NCBI RefSeq assembly: GCF_025997995.1
Contig: NZ_AP026683.1
Location: 1,240,501-1,304,500 of the forward strand
Length of the DNA: 64,000 nucleotides
Source: Sediminibacterium sp. TEGAF015
GTDB taxonomy: Bacteria > Bacteroidota > Bacteroidia > Chitinophagales > Chitinophagaceae
Direction: 5' to 3'
Of the stretch, positions 41,004 to 47,769 are shown piece after piece. The translations under genes and the position numbers were made by a program. Under the pieces are notes generated by a model. It did not search any database, was not told the DNA's origin, and worked only from the letters and a program-made list of their open reading frames with translations. The first letter of the stretch is position 1. Each line of letters starts with the position of its first letter.

Positions 41004-41300
41004 ATGTTATTCAATAAAGATTCAATTCCTTTCGGCCTTTTGTTGGGATTTATTGCGCCCGTTTTTGGATTGTTTGGTTATTACTACTGGAAGTTCAGCT
41101 TATTCAGTTTGAATGAATTCTTTCAGGTACTAATGATGCAGAAATCTTTATTGAGTGGCATTATCAGCATTGCTTTAATTGCCAATGCCATAGTCTTTAC
41201 CGTTTATATCAACAAACAAAAAGATAAAACAGCCAAGGGAGTATTCATCGCAACTTGTATTTATGCGTTAATTTCCCTTGGTTTTAAATGGTTTGTTTAA
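41004..41300 (+). CDS. small three-helix membrane protein
   Basis: 98 aa, three predicted membrane helices (about 10-30, 48-69, 78-97), no recognised family. It follows surE by 18 bp, so it is probably in the same transcript. In the absence of the blaI-blaR1 genes it would lie directly before lpxB, which may reflect an ancestral surE-membrane protein-lpxB order. Its stop codon abuts the stop of the convergent blaR1-like gene with no intervening base. Confidence 0.7.
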   Translation: MLFNKDSIPFGLLLGFIAPVFGLFGYYYWKFSLFSLNEFFQVLMMQKSLLSGIISIALIANAIVFTVYINKQKDKTAKGVFIATCIYALISLGFKWFV

Positions 41301-43814
41301 TTAATCTTCGCTAACCATAAAAGTAATTGATTGCTTTACTCTAGAAGTAACTGCTTTTCCTTTCTGTTTAGCAGGAACCCATTTAGGCCCTTTAACGATT
41401 ATTCTAACAGCTTCTTCTGCCGTTTTATATCCGGGATCATTATCCGCTTTTATATTACTGATACTCCCGTCGGATGCAACGATAAATGAAACAATAACAG
41501 TGTATTTTCCTGGAGGTCCTCCATTAATTACTGGCAAATCTATATTCAAGTTTCTTTCTAAATATTTTTGCCAAGCTTCTTTACCGCCTGGGAATGAGGC
41601 AGGAACTTCTGCTTGAGTAAATACTTTATTATAGCTTTCTTCTTTTAATTGATTAGAACGCTCTATAACAGGAGGTGGCGGTGGCGCAGGTATAGGGAGT
41701 TTCCCATATTTTTCTTCAGCCCCTCTCATACTAGCTGAATTATTGAGCATATATTTTTCTTTAGTTCCATCCTTTAATAAGATTTCCATAGTTTTTAATT
41801 GATGGTTCCAAGAAACATTAGCAACTCCAGTATTACGCTTCATAAATGATTTTATACCAGACCGATCATTCTTATCTTCTTCATGAAATGGATTAATATT
41901 TTTGAGATTAGCATCTTTAGTTACTACCTCTAACACACCATTAATTCCTTCTGTCCCGTATTTAGAGGTAGCTGCTTCCTTTTTAAGCACATTTATTGAT
42001 ACAATTTCATTGGGATTCATCTCGTTCAAACTTTCATAATCTACTTGTTTTCCATTTAATATAACAAGTGGCTTTTGTCCGTTTTTTGCAAATAATTTTA
42101 AACCACTACCCAAACCTTCAGCACTTTTACTAAAAGAAAATGACCTTACAGAATCAAAAGTTAGTTTACCTGGCGCAGATTCAATTTTCTTAACTAAGAG
42201 TTGAACTGTATCTTTTTCTGCTTTTATAAAATCATCATTTTGTTTTGTAAGAGTGGGCTTTTGACTGTACTCAGTCTCCGCCAGATATTTTTGAACACCA
42301 TTCAAAATGGCAACTGCCAATGATTCTCTGAAACTGGATGAAGTGATTATTTCCAAATCACTAGGATTTGATAAGTAGCCAGCCTCAACAAGAATACTTG
42401 GACAGTTAACATTTTGCAATACATATATCCCATCTTTCCTGCTCTTGATTCCATTAAAGGGCAAATTCAAATCATCCACTTGATTAGCCACCTGGTTGGC
42501 AAACTGTAAATGACTATTGTAACGATCGGTTTTACCCGGACTGGCTATATAAATTTCAGTTCCGGAAAGGGTTGCATTATTGGATGCATTATAATGCAAA
42601 GACAAAAACAAATCCGGGTTAGATCTATTGGCTTTTTGAGCAATTTCCATAACGGAATGTGTTTCATCTTCTGTACGCGTGAAAACTAGATTCAATCGGC
42701 TATTCTGGTTCATAGATTGGATGGTTTTGGCCAGCTCAAGTGTCAATTGGGATTCAAAAGATTTACCATCCACACCTACACTTCCCTTATCTGCCCCACC
42801 ATGTCCTGCATTGATGACAATGGTGTAGTCTTTTTTCAAACTAACTGTCATAGGTGAAATGGGAGTAACAGGGCTGCCGGCAACATCTTTATAAATGGTT
42901 TTTACAAATGTTTCAACAGATATAGGCTCTGTGGGTGGTGCATTTCTAAATGCCACTAATACAATAATTACAGCCAGCAAGGGCAATACAATCAATCTTC
43001 TTAAATAGCTGAACCTTGTGTTGGATTTACTTAACATGGCAATACGTCTTTTGATGGGTGAAAAAAAGAAGGGATTGGTTAAATGGAAGCTTTGTTGAGG
43101 GTAGGCAGCAGTCAATAACATATGTGCCAATGATGCTGTATCTCCACTCTCAACAGATTTTTTATCTGCAATGAACTCATGAATCATGTGCAGCTCTTTT
43201 TGAATCCACCAGAAAATTGGATTCAGCCAACCTACAATCAAAACACTTTGCATCAATAGTTTATCAAATGAGTGCTTTTCTTTTACATGCGTAATTTCAT
43301 GTTGCAAAATTTGTTGGCCGGTTTTACTGCTTAAATCAATGGCTTCATTCCAGAATATAAAACGGAAGAAAGAATAAGGAGTGCCTTTTGCATTGGTCAT
43401 GATTAGATCTATGGTACCCATTTTTTTAGCACTACTCCGCTTTAGTAGCTGAAAAATGCGAATCAGTGACACTATCAGACTGATGAATAAAAGAAGTGAT
43501 CCTCCAATATATAGCAGTTGTAATCCCCTCTGCCAAGAAATGGAATACCAATGCTGACTGAAACTGGTTTCTAATTCAGAATTGTTGGTGGCTACAGCTG
43601 AAAGCAAATAATATATTTGGGCATCATTGGCATCATTGTAATCGTTCCACTGTATTTTAATCAAAGGAACCAGCCAGGAAAGTAGTGTAATCGCCAACAA
43701 ATAGAATCGGTTGTATTGATGAAATTTATTATCGCGCAACACAAGCCAGTAATATCCCATCATTATGGCAGAACAAAAAACTACTTGTAAAAAATAATAA
43801 AGGGTGGTTTGCAT
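41301..43814 (-). CDS. BlaR1-like M56 protease fused to peptidoglycan amidase and TonB domains
   Basis: 837 aa multidomain protein. (1) Residues 1-290 are a BlaR1/MecR1-like M56 part with four membrane helices (about 5-25, 37-53, 98-120, 271-290), the zinc motif HEITH at 172-176 and E213 in IHEFIADKKS. (2) Residues 328-512 are an N-acetylmuramoyl-L-alanine amidase (Amidase_3): zinc ligands H338 in NAGHGG, E354 and H407 in LSLHYNA, and catalytic E477 in ILVEAGYLSNPSD, all present. (3) Residues 553-634 resemble a TonB-receptor plug (VILNGKQVDYESL). (4) A Pro-rich linker (711-715) precedes a TonB C-terminal domain (728-834). Parts 2-4 would lie in the periplasm, where BlaR1 normally carries its beta-lactam sensor. 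The blaI-like partner lies 4 bp upstream. Confidence 0.85.
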   Translation of the reverse strand: MQTTLYYFLQVVFCSAIMMGYYWLVLRDNKFHQYNRFYLLAITLLSWLVPLIKIQWNDYNDANDAQIYYLLSAVATNNSELETSFSQHWYSISWQRGLQLLYIGGSLLLFISLIVSLIRIFQLLKRSSAKKMGTIDLIMTNAKGTPYSFFRFIFWNEAIDLSSKTGQQILQHEITHVKEKHSFDKLLMQSVLIVGWLNPIFWWIQKELHMIHEFIADKKSVESGDTASLAHMLLTAAYPQQSFHLTNPFFFSPIKRRIAMLSKSNTRFSYLRRLIVLPLLAVIIVLVAFRNAPPTEPISVETFVKTIYKDVAGSPVTPISPMTVSLKKDYTIVINAGHGGADKGSVGVDGKSFESQLTLELAKTIQSMNQNSRLNLVFTRTEDETHSVMEIAQKANRSNPDLFLSLHYNASNNATLSGTEIYIASPGKTDRYNSHLQFANQVANQVDDLNLPFNGIKSRKDGIYVLQNVNCPSILVEAGYLSNPSDLEIITSSSFRESLAVAILNGVQKYLAETEYSQKPTLTKQNDDFIKAEKDTVQLLVKKIESAPGKLTFDSVRSFSFSKSAEGLGSGLKLFAKNGQKPLVILNGKQVDYESLNEMNPNEIVSINVLKKEAATSKYGTEGINGVLEVVTKDANLKNINPFHEEDKNDRSGIKSFMKRNTGVANVSWNHQLKTMEILLKDGTKEKYMLNNSASMRGAEEKYGKLPIPAPPPPPVIERSNQLKEESYNKVFTQAEVPASFPGGKEAWQKYLERNLNIDLPVINGGPPGKYTVIVSFIVASDGSISNIKADNDPGYKTAEEAVRIIVKGPKWVPAKQKGKAVTSRVKQSITFMVSED

Positions 43815-43818
43815 ACAA

Positions 43819-44181
43819 TTATTTTTTAGATTTTTTCATTTCCTGCAACAATAACTCTAGCTCTTTTACACTGATGTCTTTCTGTTTTACCATAAAGGAA
43901 ACTGCATCGGCAAAAGACCCCTCAAAATACCCTTCTACTAAATTTCGAATGGTACTGGAAGAATATTCCTCTTTAGTTACCATTGGATAATATTGATGCA
44001 CTCTTCCAATTGGAGTAATGCCCACAAACTTTTTTTCTACCAATATTTTCACAATAGTCGCAACCGTGTTACTATGTGGTTTTGGTTCAGGCTGTGCTTC
44101 AACAATATCTTTTAGGAAAGCGGTTTCCAGCTTCCAGATGGTTTGCATTATTTGCTCTTCTGCTTTGGTTAATGGTTTCAT
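43819..44181 (-). CDS. BlaI/MecI/CopY-family repressor
   Basis: 120 aa from ATG 44181 (an ATG 9 bases upstream also exists). The winged helix occupies about 1-75: PLTKAEEQIMQTIWKLETAF, then NTVATIVKILVEKKFVG, then RVHQYYPMVTKEEY; the C-terminal dimerisation helices cover about 80-120. In the classical system BlaI blocks its own operon until the M56 protease cleaves it. The cleavage site in BlaI is an Asn-Phe bond; here the corresponding region is not clearly conserved. It is the first gene of the operon with the fusion protease, with three palindromic operators directly upstream. Confidence 0.9.
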   Translation of the reverse strand: MKPLTKAEEQIMQTIWKLETAFLKDIVEAQPEPKPHSNTVATIVKILVEKKFVGITPIGRVHQYYPMVTKEEYSSSTIRNLVEGYFEGSFADAVSFMVKQKDISVKELELLLQEMKKSKK

Positions 44182-44199
44182 GATGTACATTTACAGGAG

Positions 44200-44230
44200 T
44201 AAACTTATAACTAAATTTTTAGTTTAACAA
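44200..44230 (-). promoter_or_regulatory. promoter of the blaI-blaR1-like operon
   Basis: On the minus strand a TTG (44230-44228) is followed after 20 bp by TAAGTTTA (44207-44200), one base off the TAnnTTTG consensus and with the right spacing. The predicted transcription start is near 44193. The first palindromic operator (44209-44224) sits in the spacer between the two boxes, where a bound repressor would block polymerase. Confidence 0.5.
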
Positions 44231-44264
44231 CTAAATTTTTAGTTATTTAACTATTTTTTTAGTT
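44209..44264. promoter_or_regulatory. three palindromic operators, probable BlaI-like binding array
   Basis: Three 16-bp sites start at 44209, 44229 and 44249, exactly 20 bp apart. Sites 1 and 2 are identical, AACTAAA-TT-TTTAGTT (7-bp perfect arms); site 3 is AACTATTTTTTTAGTT (5-bp arms). The 14-bp core ACTAAATTTTTAGT lines up base for base with the BlaI/MecI/CopY operator ACTACAnnTGTAGT, with C to A and G to T changes. They lie between the divergent blaI-like and lpxB genes; site 3 ends 8 bp before the lpxB ATG. Confidence 0.75.
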
Positions 44265-44271
44265 ATTCGCC

Positions 44272-45375
44272 ATGAAATACTATGTAATTGCAGGAGAAGC
44301 CAGTGGGGATTTGCATGGCAGCAACCTGATAAAACAATTGAAAGTTCAAGACCCTTCAGCTCAAATAAAATGCTGGGGAGGAGACCTAATGCAAGCTACA
44401 GGAGCCCATCTGGTAAAGCATTACAGAGATCTGGCATTCATGGGTTTTACAGAAGTTATCAAAAACCTACCGACTATATTGGGCAATTTGAGATTCTGTA
44501 AAGAAGATATTATCAGCTATCAACCCGATGCAATCATCTTAATTGATTACCCTGGATTCAATCTTCGAATTGCCGAATGGGCCAAGAAACAAGGTATTAA
44601 AGTGATATACTATATTGCACCGCAGGTTTGGGCCTGGAAAGCCAACAGGGTAAAAAAAATGAAGACATGCATTGATCTGATGCTTTGCATTTTACCCTTT
44701 GAAAAAGCGTATTTCAAAAACAATTGGAATTGGGATGTGCATTATGTTGGACATCCACTTATTGAAGTCATTGAAAAATTCAAATCGGCCAATCAGTCCG
44801 ATATAAAACCAATCATTGCTTTATTACCAGGAAGCCGCAAACAGGAAATTGCCAAAAAACTTCCCATCATGCTTAGTGTTGCAGATAAGTTCCCGCAATA
44901 TGAATTTGTAGTAGCACAGGCACCAGGCCAAGATGATGCATTTTACGAACCGTTCTTAGAGGGGCAGCAAAATGTAAAAGTGGTAAAAGATGGTACGTAC
45001 CATTTATTATCAGCATCTACTGCTGCATTGGTTACTAGTGGCACCGCCACGCTCGAAACGGCTTTATTTGGGGTACCTGAAATTGTATGTTACAAGGGAA
45101 GTGCCATTAGCTACCAGATTGCCAGGCGATTGATCAAAATTAAATTCATCTCACTTGTGAATTTAATCATGGACAAAGAAATTGTAAAGGAATTGATTCA
45201 GGATGAACTTAACACTGCTAACCTGGCGAGGGAGTTGCAATTTATCACTAGCAATCCACAAAAAATCAGCGAACTAAAATCGGAGTATCAACAACTTTAC
45301 AAAAAATTAGCAGAAGGAGGTCATGCATCAAAAAATGCAGCATCCCTGATTTCAAATCTTCTTCAAAATAAGTAG
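44272..45375 (+). CDS. lpxB: lipid-A-disaccharide synthase
   Basis: 367 aa GT19 enzyme joining UDP-2,3-diacylglucosamine with lipid X at the inner membrane. KYYVIAGEASGDLHGSNLIK (about 2-21) is the N-terminal signature; DYPGFNLRIAEWAKKQG (about 97-113), YYIAPQVWAWK (about 118-128) and LVTSGTATLETALFGVPEIV (about 248-267) are the rest. Upstream lie the BlaI-like operators, the nearest only 8 bp from the ATG, so lpxB expression might be affected by the repressor. No clear promoter of its own is visible. Confidence 0.95.
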   Translation: MKYYVIAGEASGDLHGSNLIKQLKVQDPSAQIKCWGGDLMQATGAHLVKHYRDLAFMGFTEVIKNLPTILGNLRFCKEDIISYQPDAIILIDYPGFNLRIAEWAKKQGIKVIYYIAPQVWAWKANRVKKMKTCIDLMLCILPFEKAYFKNNWNWDVHYVGHPLIEVIEKFKSANQSDIKPIIALLPGSRKQEIAKKLPIMLSVADKFPQYEFVVAQAPGQDDAFYEPFLEGQQNVKVVKDGTYHLLSASTAALVTSGTATLETALFGVPEIVCYKGSAISYQIARRLIKIKFISLVNLIMDKEIVKELIQDELNTANLARELQFITSNPQKISELKSEYQQLYKKLAEGGHASKNAASLISNLLQNK

Positions 45376-45699: not shown

Positions 45700-47769
45700 A
45701 TGCGCAAACTATTCTCCATCGTTTTCTTTCTAATTTATTCCGTAAACCTTACTGCTCAAATAAAGATTGAGCTGGAAACCTATAGAGACCCCAATCAAAT
45801 TGATATTATCCGTGATAAATGGGGCGTGCCGCATATTTTCGGCAAAACTGATGCAGATGTTGCCTATGGGCTGGCTTGGGCACATGCAGAAGACGACTTT
45901 GAAACCATTCAACTTTCCTTGATGGCTGGCAACGGGATGCTTGCCAGATACAAGGGAAGAGAAGGAGCCCAGGTGGATTATATAGTTCGTTTACTCAGAA
46001 TTCCTGAACTAGTGGAAGACCGTTATGAGAGAGACCTTTCAGCCGATTTCAAAAAAGTATTGCAGGGATATTGTGAGGGCCTAAATGCCTATGCAGAAAA
46101 ACACAATAATGAAGTTTTATTAAAAAACCTATTCCCGGTTACTCCTAAAGCAATGATTAGATATTCTGTATTGCAATTGTGCATTTTATCAGGAGCCGAC
46201 AAAGCATTGTCTTCCATTTTTGGGGGAACTGTTCCCTTATTGGAAAATTTTAAAACGCAGGGCAGTAATGCTTTCGCCTTTAATAGTAAAAAAACAACAG
46301 ATGGAAATACCTATCTGGCCATCAATGCCCATCAACCTTTAGAAGGACCCGTGGCTTTCTATGAAGCGCATTTAAACAGTGAAGAAGGATGGAATATACT
46401 CGGTGCCAATTTTCCTGGCGCCCCCAGTATTTTACATGGCGTAAATGAACACCTAGGATGGGCTCATACGGTAAATGAGCCAGACAAACTAGATGTATAT
46501 CAATTAGAAATGCATCCCAAAAACAAGAACCAATATTTATTTGATGGAAACTGGGAAACCCTTGAAGTAAAAGAGACGAGAATTCCAGTAAAGTTTAAAT
46601 TAATGACACTTAGTGCAATTAGAGATCTTCATTGGAGCAAATACGGCCCAACCATCATAACAAAAAGAGGCACTTTCTCCATCCGTATGCCGGCGCAAAT
46701 GGATATTCGTGGATTAGAACAATGGTATCGTTTTAACAAAGCCAAAAACTTTACTGAATTCAAAGCAGCATTAGAAATGCGCGCCATTCCAGGATATAAT
46801 ATTGTGTACGCAGATAAATACGATACCATTTATTATATTAGTAATGGTAGAATACCCGTACGTCCTAAAGGATACAATTGGAAGTCTACCCTGCCTGGCA
46901 ATACCAGCAAGACCTTATGGAATGAATTACATCCCATTAGTGCATTACCGCAAGTATTACAGCCTTCCTCAGGATTTGTATACAATACCAACCACTCTCC
47001 TTTTCATTCTACAGAGGGAAAGGAAAATCCAGTGATTACCGACAGCACTATGGGATATGAGACACTGGAAAACAATCGCAGCAAAAGATGGGAAGCATTG
47101 GTACAGCCATTGAATAAAGTGAGCTATGAAGATTTTAAGCGAATCAAATTTGACCGGCAGTTTCCCTCCACCTTTTATTTCCCCTATAATATTGACAGCT
47201 TATTTCTCTTAGATGAAACGACATATCCTGACATTGCAGATTTGATTGTGCAACTTAAAAACTGGGATAAAAAAGGCGACGCAACCAATATAGGAGCAGG
47301 TACTTTCTTTATGGTGTATCATGATATCGTTCCCAAACGAAGTGTGTTTATGAAACAAGGTTTTATAGGATTAGAAGATGCTGTTGGAATTCTCAGATCT
47401 ACCAAAGCCACTATGTTGCAGCAATTCAACAGAACCAATTTACAATTGGGTGAGGTTCAAAAACTGGTTCGTGGAAATGTAGCTTTACCCCTACCGGGCT
47501 TACCTGATTTGCTAGCGCCTATGTATTCCATTCCCTATAAAGACGGAATGTACAAAGGCAATCAGGGTGATGCATATATAGAATTGGTTAAATTCACGAA
47601 AGATGGACCGATTATTGAATCTGTAAATGTGTATGGTGCATCTGCTAGAAAAGATTCCCCGCATTATACCGATCAAATGCAAATGTATATTGATCAAAAA
47701 ACAAAGCCTATGACTTTAAATAAGGCTACTGTTTACCAACAAGCGGTTAAAAAATACCATCCACTCTAA
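45700..47769 (+). CDS. penicillin-acylase-family N-terminal nucleophile hydrolase
   Basis: 689 aa, secreted (signal peptide about 1-20, ending NLTAQ). The precursor should be cut autocatalytically before S189 in KTQGSNAFAFNSKKT, giving small and large subunits as in penicillin G acylase and acyl-homoserine-lactone acylases. Later family features are HLGWAHTVNEPDKLDVY and YNTNHSPFH. The real substrate in the family ranges over beta-lactams, N-acyl-homoserine lactones and other amides. It is two genes from the BlaR1-like amidase fusion, though no shared promoter or operator is visible. The gene stands alone with its own promoter motif. Confidence 0.87.
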   Translation: MRKLFSIVFFLIYSVNLTAQIKIELETYRDPNQIDIIRDKWGVPHIFGKTDADVAYGLAWAHAEDDFETIQLSLMAGNGMLARYKGREGAQVDYIVRLLRIPELVEDRYERDLSADFKKVLQGYCEGLNAYAEKHNNEVLLKNLFPVTPKAMIRYSVLQLCILSGADKALSSIFGGTVPLLENFKTQGSNAFAFNSKKTTDGNTYLAINAHQPLEGPVAFYEAHLNSEEGWNILGANFPGAPSILHGVNEHLGWAHTVNEPDKLDVYQLEMHPKNKNQYLFDGNWETLEVKETRIPVKFKLMTLSAIRDLHWSKYGPTIITKRGTFSIRMPAQMDIRGLEQWYRFNKAKNFTEFKAALEMRAIPGYNIVYADKYDTIYYISNGRIPVRPKGYNWKSTLPGNTSKTLWNELHPISALPQVLQPSSGFVYNTNHSPFHSTEGKENPVITDSTMGYETLENNRSKRWEALVQPLNKVSYEDFKRIKFDRQFPSTFYFPYNIDSLFLLDETTYPDIADLIVQLKNWDKKGDATNIGAGTFFMVYHDIVPKRSVFMKQGFIGLEDAVGILRSTKATMLQQFNRTNLQLGEVQKLVRGNVALPLPGLPDLLAPMYSIPYKDGMYKGNQGDAYIELVKFTKDGPIIESVNVYGASARKDSPHYTDQMQMYIDQKTKPMTLNKATVYQQAVKKYHPL

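Follow-up and report, generated by a model that had tools for sequence, protein, structure and literature searches.

The 64,000-nucleotide stretch of the Sediminibacterium sp. TEGAF015 genome analyzed here (the window) contains an open reading frame for an 837-residue protein in which a Pfam search recovers M56, Amidase_3, Plug-like and TonB_C segments within one chain, in the order that an earlier sequence-only reading of this DNA had described. According to the list of open reading frames of the window, the gene directly upstream is blaI, which is divergently oriented to lpxB across 81 bp, and three palindromes lie upstream of blaI in 20-bp steps (Table 1). The active-site residues fall at the positions given by that reading, namely HEITH at 172-176 of the M56 part and H338, E354, H407 and E477 of the amidase. 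H172, E173, H176, H338, E354, H407 and E477 are invariant in a 19-row alignment with identities to the Sediminibacterium protein ranging down to 39%.

Table 1. Features of the blaI locus of Sediminibacterium sp. TEGAF015, in positions of the window
Feature	Positions	Strand	Basis
M56 - Amidase_3 - half Plug - TonB_C protein, 837 aa	41301..43814	-	Open reading frame and Pfam domains
BlaR1-like membrane protease part, residues 1-290	42945..43814	-	M56 profile match to BlaR1
HEITH zinc motif, residues 172-176	43287..43301	-	H172, E173 and H176 in 54/54 M56 proteins
ExxxD motif, residues E213-D217	43164..43178	-	54/54 M56 proteins; aligns with BlaR1 E242xxxD246
Amidase_3 domain, residues 332-508; ligands H338, E354, H407, catalytic E477	42291..42821	-	Pfam, structure, residue counts
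C-terminal half of Plug / SusC-RagA signature, residues 568-627	41934..42113	-	Pfam Plug; TIGR04057 below cut-off
TonB_C domain, residues 772-832	41319..41501	-	Pfam E 1.4e-7, 32.3 bits against a cut-off of 24.6
blaI, BlaI/MecI-type repressor, 123 aa	43819..44190	-	Penicillinase_R E 9.5e-27; MecI 1okr E 1e-9
-7-like promoter element of the blaI operon, TAAGTTTA	44200..44207	-	TAnnTTT[G/A] element right after the palindrome pair
Palindrome 1, AACTAAATTTTTAGTT, putative BlaI operator	44209..44224		Genome and locus palindrome counts
Palindrome 2, AACTAAATTTTTAGTT, putative BlaI operator	44229..44244		Genome and locus palindrome counts
Palindrome 3, AACTATTTTTTTAGTT, 7 bp before the lpxB start codon	44249..44264		Genome and locus palindrome counts
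lpxB (lipid-A-disaccharide synthase)	44272..45375	+	Pfam LpxB E 1.8e-92

The arrangement is not unique to Sediminibacterium sp. TEGAF015, as a search of other genomes yielded 37 distinct proteins combining M56 and Amidase_3, which represent at least 12 genera within a single family, and one further such protein from another family. For comparison we collected 54 M56 loci (37 fused with Amidase_3 and 17 unfused) that are the best matches to the query and distinct by M56 sequence, so that counts over them describe the relatives of the query and not M56 proteins at large. The sequence-only reading had allowed that a sequencing error might have merged two separate genes. A frameshift of this kind can be set aside since relatives keep M56 and Amidase_3 in a single open frame, as seen in at least 29 of 396 genomes of the order, and the named isolates S. 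salmoneum NBRC 103935 (L033, whose fusion lacks TonB_C) and S. goheungense DSM 28323 (L039) carry the fusion as well. Nothing in the Sediminibacterium gene itself speaks for an artefact of assembly or annotation; one relative (G341) has the two parts in separate frames. We give this explanation next to no chance. Among close M56 relatives the amidase has been gained or lost repeatedly, with nine changes, at least six of them forced, on an M56 tree in which the program flagged long branches; hence switches of this kind exist with other modules too, which weighs against the reading proposed below. In a tree of the 22 earlier fused rows and three new ones, a support of 92/50 suggests that the fusion in L152 arose independently; the contig-cut L008 was left out of one tree of the relatives. 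The possibility that unfused lpxB-linked relatives retain a degenerate amidase was rejected, as they gave no Amidase_3 match. Five of these unfused relatives carry a different segment without a Pfam name, which by eye is apparently shared. Three long-frame amidase matches from outside the family (G464, G520 and G708) lack an M56 part in their frames.

The membrane half of the protein had been taken for a BlaR1-type protease, and profile searches bear this out. Peptidase_M56 matches residues 161-261 in Pfam (E 3.5e-9; 36.7 bits against a cut-off of 31), and a PDB search with the M56 profile (A4) aligned positions 13-289 with BlaR1 (8exp, E 2.9e-6), which is the sole PDB molecule with E < 1, both such rows being BlaR1. 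The R293/R294 pair of BlaR1 aligns with R256/R257, which are invariant in the 19-row alignment. Long helices are modeled at residues 4-25, 32-56, 94-126 and 267-290, with low confidence (pLDDT) in the M56 part, the half that is poor or of low confidence in both structure models; the fold search used the first model only. By an eye reading of the profile alignment, D210 and Y261 of BlaR1 (numbering of PMC9834060) correspond to H181 and L229 here. The accessible part of that paper terms the two residues near strictly conserved (PMC9834060), and given their replacement the M56 protease may behave differently from BlaR1. No transpeptidase-type match was obtained in the 837-residue protein with Pfam at E up to 1. 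As the penicillin-binding sensor is missing and Amidase_3 is present instead, we class the product of this gene, the one M56 gene of the genome, as an M56 BlaR1-like protein and not as BlaR1.

The module at the position of the BlaR1 sensor had been described as a complete peptidoglycan amidase, a description that holds in domain score, residue conservation and modeled fold. Amidase_3 (PF01520) is matched with E 1.2e-40 (139.9 bits against a cut-off of 27), and the predicted structure of this part matches CwlV (1jwq) with a TM score of 0.92. With a complete fold and active site it looks like a competent enzyme, predicted to be an N-acetylmuramoyl-L-alanine amidase. The beta-lactamase-like domain of BlaR1 became a sensor, and the amidase, likewise an enzyme-like domain, occupies its position; one might suppose from this that it serves purely as a peptidoglycan-binding sensor, its catalytic residues being relics or used for binding, and the Gly at the catalytic Glu position of the fused protein L097 would fit such a role. 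We nevertheless think this unlikely, because the zinc ligands are kept in all 37 fused proteins and the catalytic Glu in 35 of the 36 that are readable there, a set wider than the 19-row alignment.

The C-terminal segments fared unevenly. TonB_C scores over its cut-off; the Plug match is confined to the C-terminal half of the profile (positions 53-107 of 107) and stays under the cut-off (E 1.5e-4; 22.6 bits against 23.9), and Pfam gave no match to a complete plug or to a receptor barrel family in the 837-residue protein. Residues 697-837 share 62% identity with the genome's stand-alone TonB (L161), which adjoins exbB and exbD, so that contact of this C-terminus with outer-membrane receptors is possible. 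The likeness is to the C-terminal domain of TonB and does not extend to its N-terminus: the helix for ExbB/ExbD coupling is absent, the N-terminus being formed by the M56 membrane part. TonB_C is missing in 13 of the 37 fused proteins and the Plug-like segment in 10, L008, which is cut by a contig end, counting among both; TonB_C is present in the full 1131-residue protein of L090. In L073, L086, L088 and L152 the matches over the Pfam cut-offs are Amidase_3 and M56 only, save for eCIS_core in L086. This eCIS_core match overlaps the M56 part of L086. From its absence in 13 of 37 fused proteins the TonB_C part is, on distribution, accessory; of the TonB or outer-membrane coupling proposed earlier, an essential role is thus not supported, a TonB N-terminus for coupling to ExbB is absent, and receptor contact may stand.

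These observations bear on a different view, namely that the main role of the protein is that of a regulated wall hydrolase, in which the amidase would be the output of another trigger and M56 would merely release BlaI; the trigger might be membrane stress, or the state of the outer membrane or of TonB receptors as sensed through the Plug/TonB part. The TonB-like end agrees with this, as do the lpxB-linked loci of 12 M56 proteins without amidase, which retain blaI and the palindromes. Moreover, an insertion of about 80 residues in the other Amidase_3 of the genome is missing here (the same stretch of the profile spans 531 nt in the fused gene and 771 nt in the other), and for this reason the fused amidase may escape inhibition and require tight repression. 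Against it stand the fused proteins that lack TonB_C or the Plug-like segment, including four with neither over the Pfam cut-offs, and we regard it as a minor but real possibility.

The connection to BlaI that had been proposed from the M56 gene is supported by gene neighborhoods: in each of the 54 loci collected, blaI adjoins the M56 gene, and in 53 of them two or more palindromes lie upstream of blaI, as against none of 5400 shuffled stretches. An exact 20-bp palindrome pair occurs in 48 of the 54 loci, and in 36 of these 48 a TAnnTTT[G/A] element comes right after the putative operator pair (shuffle mean 2.4); in Sediminibacterium we take TAAGTTTA at 44200..44207 to be such a -7-like element by the Bacteroidota TAnnTTTG consensus. 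The site at which BlaR1 cleaves BlaI, N101-F102, aligns with F99-M100 of the Sediminibacterium BlaI, and the aligned P1' residue is M, L or F in 76 of 76; it is thus bulky, but in most cases differs from the almost invariant Phe. The genome has one BlaI; an apparent second one (L048), barely over the PF03965 cut-off with 22.8 bits, proved to be a Fur protein (FUR E 8.2e-27).

Across the genome AACTA-N6-TAGTT is found at six places, compared with 31 for a control pattern, and three of the six are at the blaI locus, the only one where the exact palindrome lies outside coding frames. As the remaining three (L091, L092 and L093) are inside coding frames, that of L091 being at least 993 residues long, the likely target is the blaI operon itself; an Rfam search of L091 gave no match. 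A wider regulon was considered and dropped, since the 16-mer with up to two mismatches has 14 genome matches (5 forward, 9 reverse), whereas the control with the pattern reversed gave more (13 and 11). No beta-lactamase or PBP target was seen, there being no further palindrome outside coding frames at the stringency of AACTA-N6-TAGTT, which would miss weaker sites. On the pattern of sites, BlaI probably controls mainly the operon of blaI and the M56-amidase gene, and the divergent lpxB is possibly also a target. lpxB is the divergent neighbor at 23 of the 37 fused and 12 of the 17 unfused loci, a distribution that leaves unsupported the idea of the amidase as the cause of this linkage; three fused loci (L040, L097 and L119) have at most 333 bases upstream, and lpxB is not visible there.

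We propose that the locus encodes a BlaI-repressed, BlaR1-like switch in which the beta-lactam sensor has been replaced by a competent-looking peptidoglycan amidase, a reading that, judged from genes and sites, we hold to have about an even chance of being right. BlaR1 has its N- and C-termini and its sensor outside; the M56 protein would lie in the inner membrane, its protease site on the inner side and its amidase on the periplasmic side. In the resting state, the promoter would be covered by BlaI dimers bound to the 20-bp-spaced palindromes, which would keep the blaI and M56-amidase operon low. When the amidase engages or cuts the wall, the last membrane helix would relay the change to the M56 part, whose protease would inactivate BlaI, so that more of the amidase-protease, and perhaps more LpxB, would be made. 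Sensor and effector would then be one chain, no separate resistance gene having been found as an output. We infer that the system senses the wall itself, and the bacterium may use its wall-cutting enzyme to monitor this wall. The BlaR1/BlaI switch is known for antibiotic sensing; the present locus suggests that it has a parallel use with wall chemistry as the input, and offers for Bacteroidota a connection between cutting of the wall and synthesis of lipid A that can be tested.

It is also conceivable that the amidase makes the signal: released stem peptides, once imported and trimmed, would act as a coactivator of BlaI, with M56 helping inside. A peptide coactivator of BlaI has been proposed for Bacillus licheniformis, and the portion of that report available to us has gamma-D-Glu-diamino acid dipeptides bound by BlaI/MecI and proposes trimming of an L-Ala tripeptide by BlaR (PMC3305447). 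Later work, as far as its accessible text goes, finds direct cleavage of BlaI by S. aureus BlaR1, without the need for another component (PMC9834060), and we consider such a signal quite improbable here. In its fuller form, which we offer as a long shot, the amidase outside would free stem peptides, and M56 and BlaI inside would read the peptide flux, tuning the amidase and perhaps, in this clade, the synthesis of lipid A via lpxB. If true, two zinc enzymes would work in series on opposite membrane sides of one chain, the cell would gauge how fast its wall turns over from what its own sensor produces, and the peptidoglycan-fragment and protease models of BlaI inactivation would be joined in one protein. 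BlaI release has been argued both ways in the accessible texts, by a wall fragment (PMC3305447) and by a direct cut (PMC9834060); with a predicted stem-peptide-releasing enzyme and a protease in one natural protein, both models become testable in a single chain.

In relation to known systems, our preferred reading of a wall-sensing switch places the protein beside BlaR1 and MecR1, with which it shares the M56 membrane protease, the HExxH...ExxxD signature and the arginine pair, and from which it differs by having Amidase_3 where those carry the penicillin-binding sensor and, relative to BlaR1, by the replaced D210 and Y261. As with BlaI/MecI, a BlaI-type repressor is encoded beside the protease and paired palindromes lie upstream, but a beta-lactamase or PBP target is not seen. 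The amidase resembles CwlV, CwlD and AmiA/B/C in its complete Amidase_3 fold and active site, but unlike these it is fused behind a membrane protease, and it is without the insertion of the stand-alone Amidase_3 of the same genome. The BlaI regulons of Clostridium thermocellum, as described in the available part of PMC8457756, are small, regulate themselves and have inverted repeats in pairs, the two BlaI motifs of this species being of the GTCTAT and GACTAT types. The Sediminibacterium locus is similar in its small regulon, its paired repeats before its own operon and its half-site (AACTA here, GACTAT there); the partners there, however, are BlaR1 proteins, and that part of the paper mentions no amidase (PMC8457756). 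Among the matches listed in a search of the freely accessible literature, no paper on an M56-Amidase_3 protein was apparent by title or start of abstract. A related case is M23-M56, given in the accessible text of PMC9662197 as one of the extra catalytic domain combinations that occur in less than 1% of M23 proteins; there too M56 is joined to a peptidoglycan hydrolase domain, but this is an M23 peptidase and not an amidase. Thus, as far as that text goes, the pairing of M56 with a wall hydrolase is already known in the rare M23-M56 proteins (PMC9662197).

Pfam searches recovered an M56, an Amidase_3 and a TonB_C domain in the 837-aa M56-amidase protein, as the sequence-only reading had claimed; the fourth domain that it proposed, a TonB-type plug, was recovered only as a half-length Plug match slightly below the Pfam cut-off, in a segment resembling the SusC/RagA signature. 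Translation of the ORF and alignment placed every residue named in that reading where it had been claimed. Among named relatives the nearest are isolates of Sediminibacterium, the genus to which the window is accordingly assigned. The genome, a single contig of 3.06 Mb, has one M56 gene and one BlaI gene, and two Amidase_3 genes, namely the M56-amidase and a stand-alone 310-aa enzyme. A second PF03965 match, considered as another BlaI, was rejected as a Fur protein. The Amidase_3 domain of the stand-alone enzyme spans 771 nt versus 531 nt in the M56-amidase, and its ~80 added residues fit the AmiA/B/C type, which has a regulatory helix. Separately, surE and the M56 gene flank a 98-aa ORF that is tail to tail with the M56 gene; it has no Pfam family above cut-off and is conserved in many members of the genus and some other genera.

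Features of the M56-amidase locus and of other loci (L, loci; G, genomes)
Feature	Coordinates	Strand	Remark
98-aa ORF	41004-41300	+	
M56-amidase ORF, 837 aa	41301-43814	-	
BlaI-type repressor gene, 123 aa	43819-44190	-	upstream of M56-amidase gene
Penicillin-amidase family gene	45700-47769	+	after lpxB; PF01804, E 3.7e-112
Minimal M56-Amidase_3 protein, 475 aa	L152:1951-3378	-	genome G643, other family of same class; blaI in front
TonB of source genome	L161:2003-2833	+	downstream of exbB and exbD
Downstream M56 gene of tandem (G015:C58)	L014:1498-3393		amidase match
Frame of at least 993 aa	L091:1-2979	-	closes list of genome palindromes

Both putative active sites are conserved. H172, E173, H176, E213 and D217 are invariant across 54 distinct M56 proteins, and H338, E354 and H407 across the 37 distinct proteins in which M56 and Amidase_3 are fused. 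The catalytic glutamate E477 is kept in 35 of the 36 fused proteins with letters at that position (L008 is truncated there); the sole exception, L097, has a glycine, which makes it a possible naturally occurring sensor-only variant. The amidase part of the structure model is of good quality, with blocks mostly at pLDDT 70-93 and one at 63, and within the PDB it matches CwlV (1jwq, TM 0.92 by target length) and other Amidase_3 enzymes best; the M56 part was modeled poorly in two structure predictions.

A profile of M56 plus amidase matched 187 of 396 genomes of the order at E up to 1e-30. Among the matches listed, a single match spans both parts in 18 genomes and the two parts lie within one open frame in 8 further ones; with three genomes added by Pfam (G176, G124 and G166) the fusion is present in at least 29 of the 396. 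Within Sediminibacterium it was seen in 11 of the 14 genomes listed; two (G161, G227) have an M56 gene without the fusion, and one gave no match to the profile at E up to 1e-30. In one genome (G341) the two parts occupy separate frames. A phylum-wide search of 395 genomes yielded, among the matches listed, one fusion outside the family, in G643, and three long-frame amidase matches with no M56 (G464, G520 and G708). One genome has tandem M56 genes (G015:C58, i.e. L014 with its upstream DNA), the upstream one a 554-aa frame with no amidase match, with blaI seen before the downstream one.

Presence of the amidase requires 9 changes on the M56 tree, at least 6 of these changes being forced by well-supported branches, and hence the amidase has been lost or gained often. 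Five lpxB-linked proteins (L043, L078, L081, L082 and L085) have another segment in its place (residues about 300-500, with a motif like YGLWIDGKHV), alike by eye and with no Pfam match; other relatives at lpxB-linked loci have Plug-like parts only. In the amidase tree a branch (94/83; 96% of 200 bootstrap trees) separates the family's 35 fused domains from the insertion-type enzymes and the 390-590-aa ones encoded in the same genomes, which suggests that the fused domains have a single origin. Upon addition of six short amidases (202-233 aa) from another family, f25, the fused group was less resolved, with 3 changes needed and only one in 0% of bootstrap trees. L152 grouped with four of the short f25 amidases (92/50), a placement that hints at a second, independent fusion event.

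TonB_C is found in 24 of the 37 fused proteins and Plug-like segments in 27. The C-terminal 141 residues of the M56-amidase are 62% identical to the TonB encoded elsewhere in the genome and may dock to the same receptors, although TonB's own N-terminus is absent. In L089 the TonB_C is followed by a C-terminal segment (residues 810-869) similar to GldM, a gliding/secretion protein, with a score slightly below cut-off (GldM_4th, E 1.3e-4).

The 81-bp gap between blaI and the divergent lpxB contains three AACTA-N6-TAGTT palindromes in 20-bp steps. In all 54 collected M56 loci blaI adjoins the M56 gene, and the 300 bp upstream contain at least two palindromes with the core ACTA-N6-TAGT in 53 of them, all but L015 with its single one, as against none of 5400 mononucleotide-shuffled stretches. 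A pair at exactly 20-bp spacing occurs in 48 of the 54, followed within 14 nt in 36 of these 48 (mean of 2.4 in shuffles) by TAnnTTT[G/A], an element of the -7 type of Bacteroidota. This arrangement would be the place where the repressor sits. Counting AACTA-N6-TAGTT only, which would miss more degenerate sites, the genome has six palindromes, the three others lying inside coding frames. In the species whose gap measures 81 bp, palindrome 3 comes near the start of lpxB (in the window it precedes that start by 7 bp), and BlaI could therefore also affect lpxB there; other species have longer gaps with palindromes near blaI only, and thus such control is not general. The divergent neighbor is lpxB in 12 of 17 unfused loci and 23 of 37 fused ones, three of the latter having upstream DNA too short to show it. 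Many relatives for which the flanking sequence is long enough also have the penicillin-amidase family gene close to this locus; a pattern search of window and genome found no palindrome of the exact type before it.

The component parts of this protein are already known. A review, in its treatment of M23 proteins, lists M56 among the extra catalytic domains present in under 1% of them, and states that M56 has yet to be shown to act in cleavage of the wall (PMC9662197). No paper on a protein that combines M56 and Amidase_3 turned up in a search of open-licence literature, mostly by title and abstract start. The arrangement is conserved enough to be taken as real, and the protein is worth an experiment.

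Most likely, this is a BlaI-repressed operon whose product would both sense and cut the wall. In the account of BlaR1 signaling in PMC9834060, an enzyme-like sensor domain on the outside relays its state across the membrane to the protease; with an amidase in place of this domain, substrate binding or turnover would become the input. As no other target emerged from the palindrome search, the circuit would chiefly yield its own amidase-protease and thus tune itself. It is also attractive to suppose that the amidase might produce the chemical signal acting on BlaI as well: BlaI and MecI are described as binding a stem-peptide dipeptide, and BlaR has been proposed to trim the tripeptide (PMC3305447). 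This is opposed by the finding that BlaR1 by itself cuts BlaI (PMC9834060).

A profile of 15 M56 parts, run against all PDB sequences, retrieved Staphylococcus aureus BlaR1 (8exp, E 2.9e-6, aligned over positions 13-289) and a second BlaR1 sequence (8exs, E 1.2e-5), and beyond these a single row at E 1.8. The zinc ligands are retained, as are the two motifs, ExxxD and RR, that PMC9834060 describes in BlaR1, whereas, in the alignment read by eye, D210 and Y261 (numbering of that paper) are replaced by H181 and L229. The nearest match of the repressor is MecI (1okr, E 1e-9); the N101-F102 cleavage site of BlaI aligns with F99-M100 here, and all 76 repressors compared have M, L or F at position 100.
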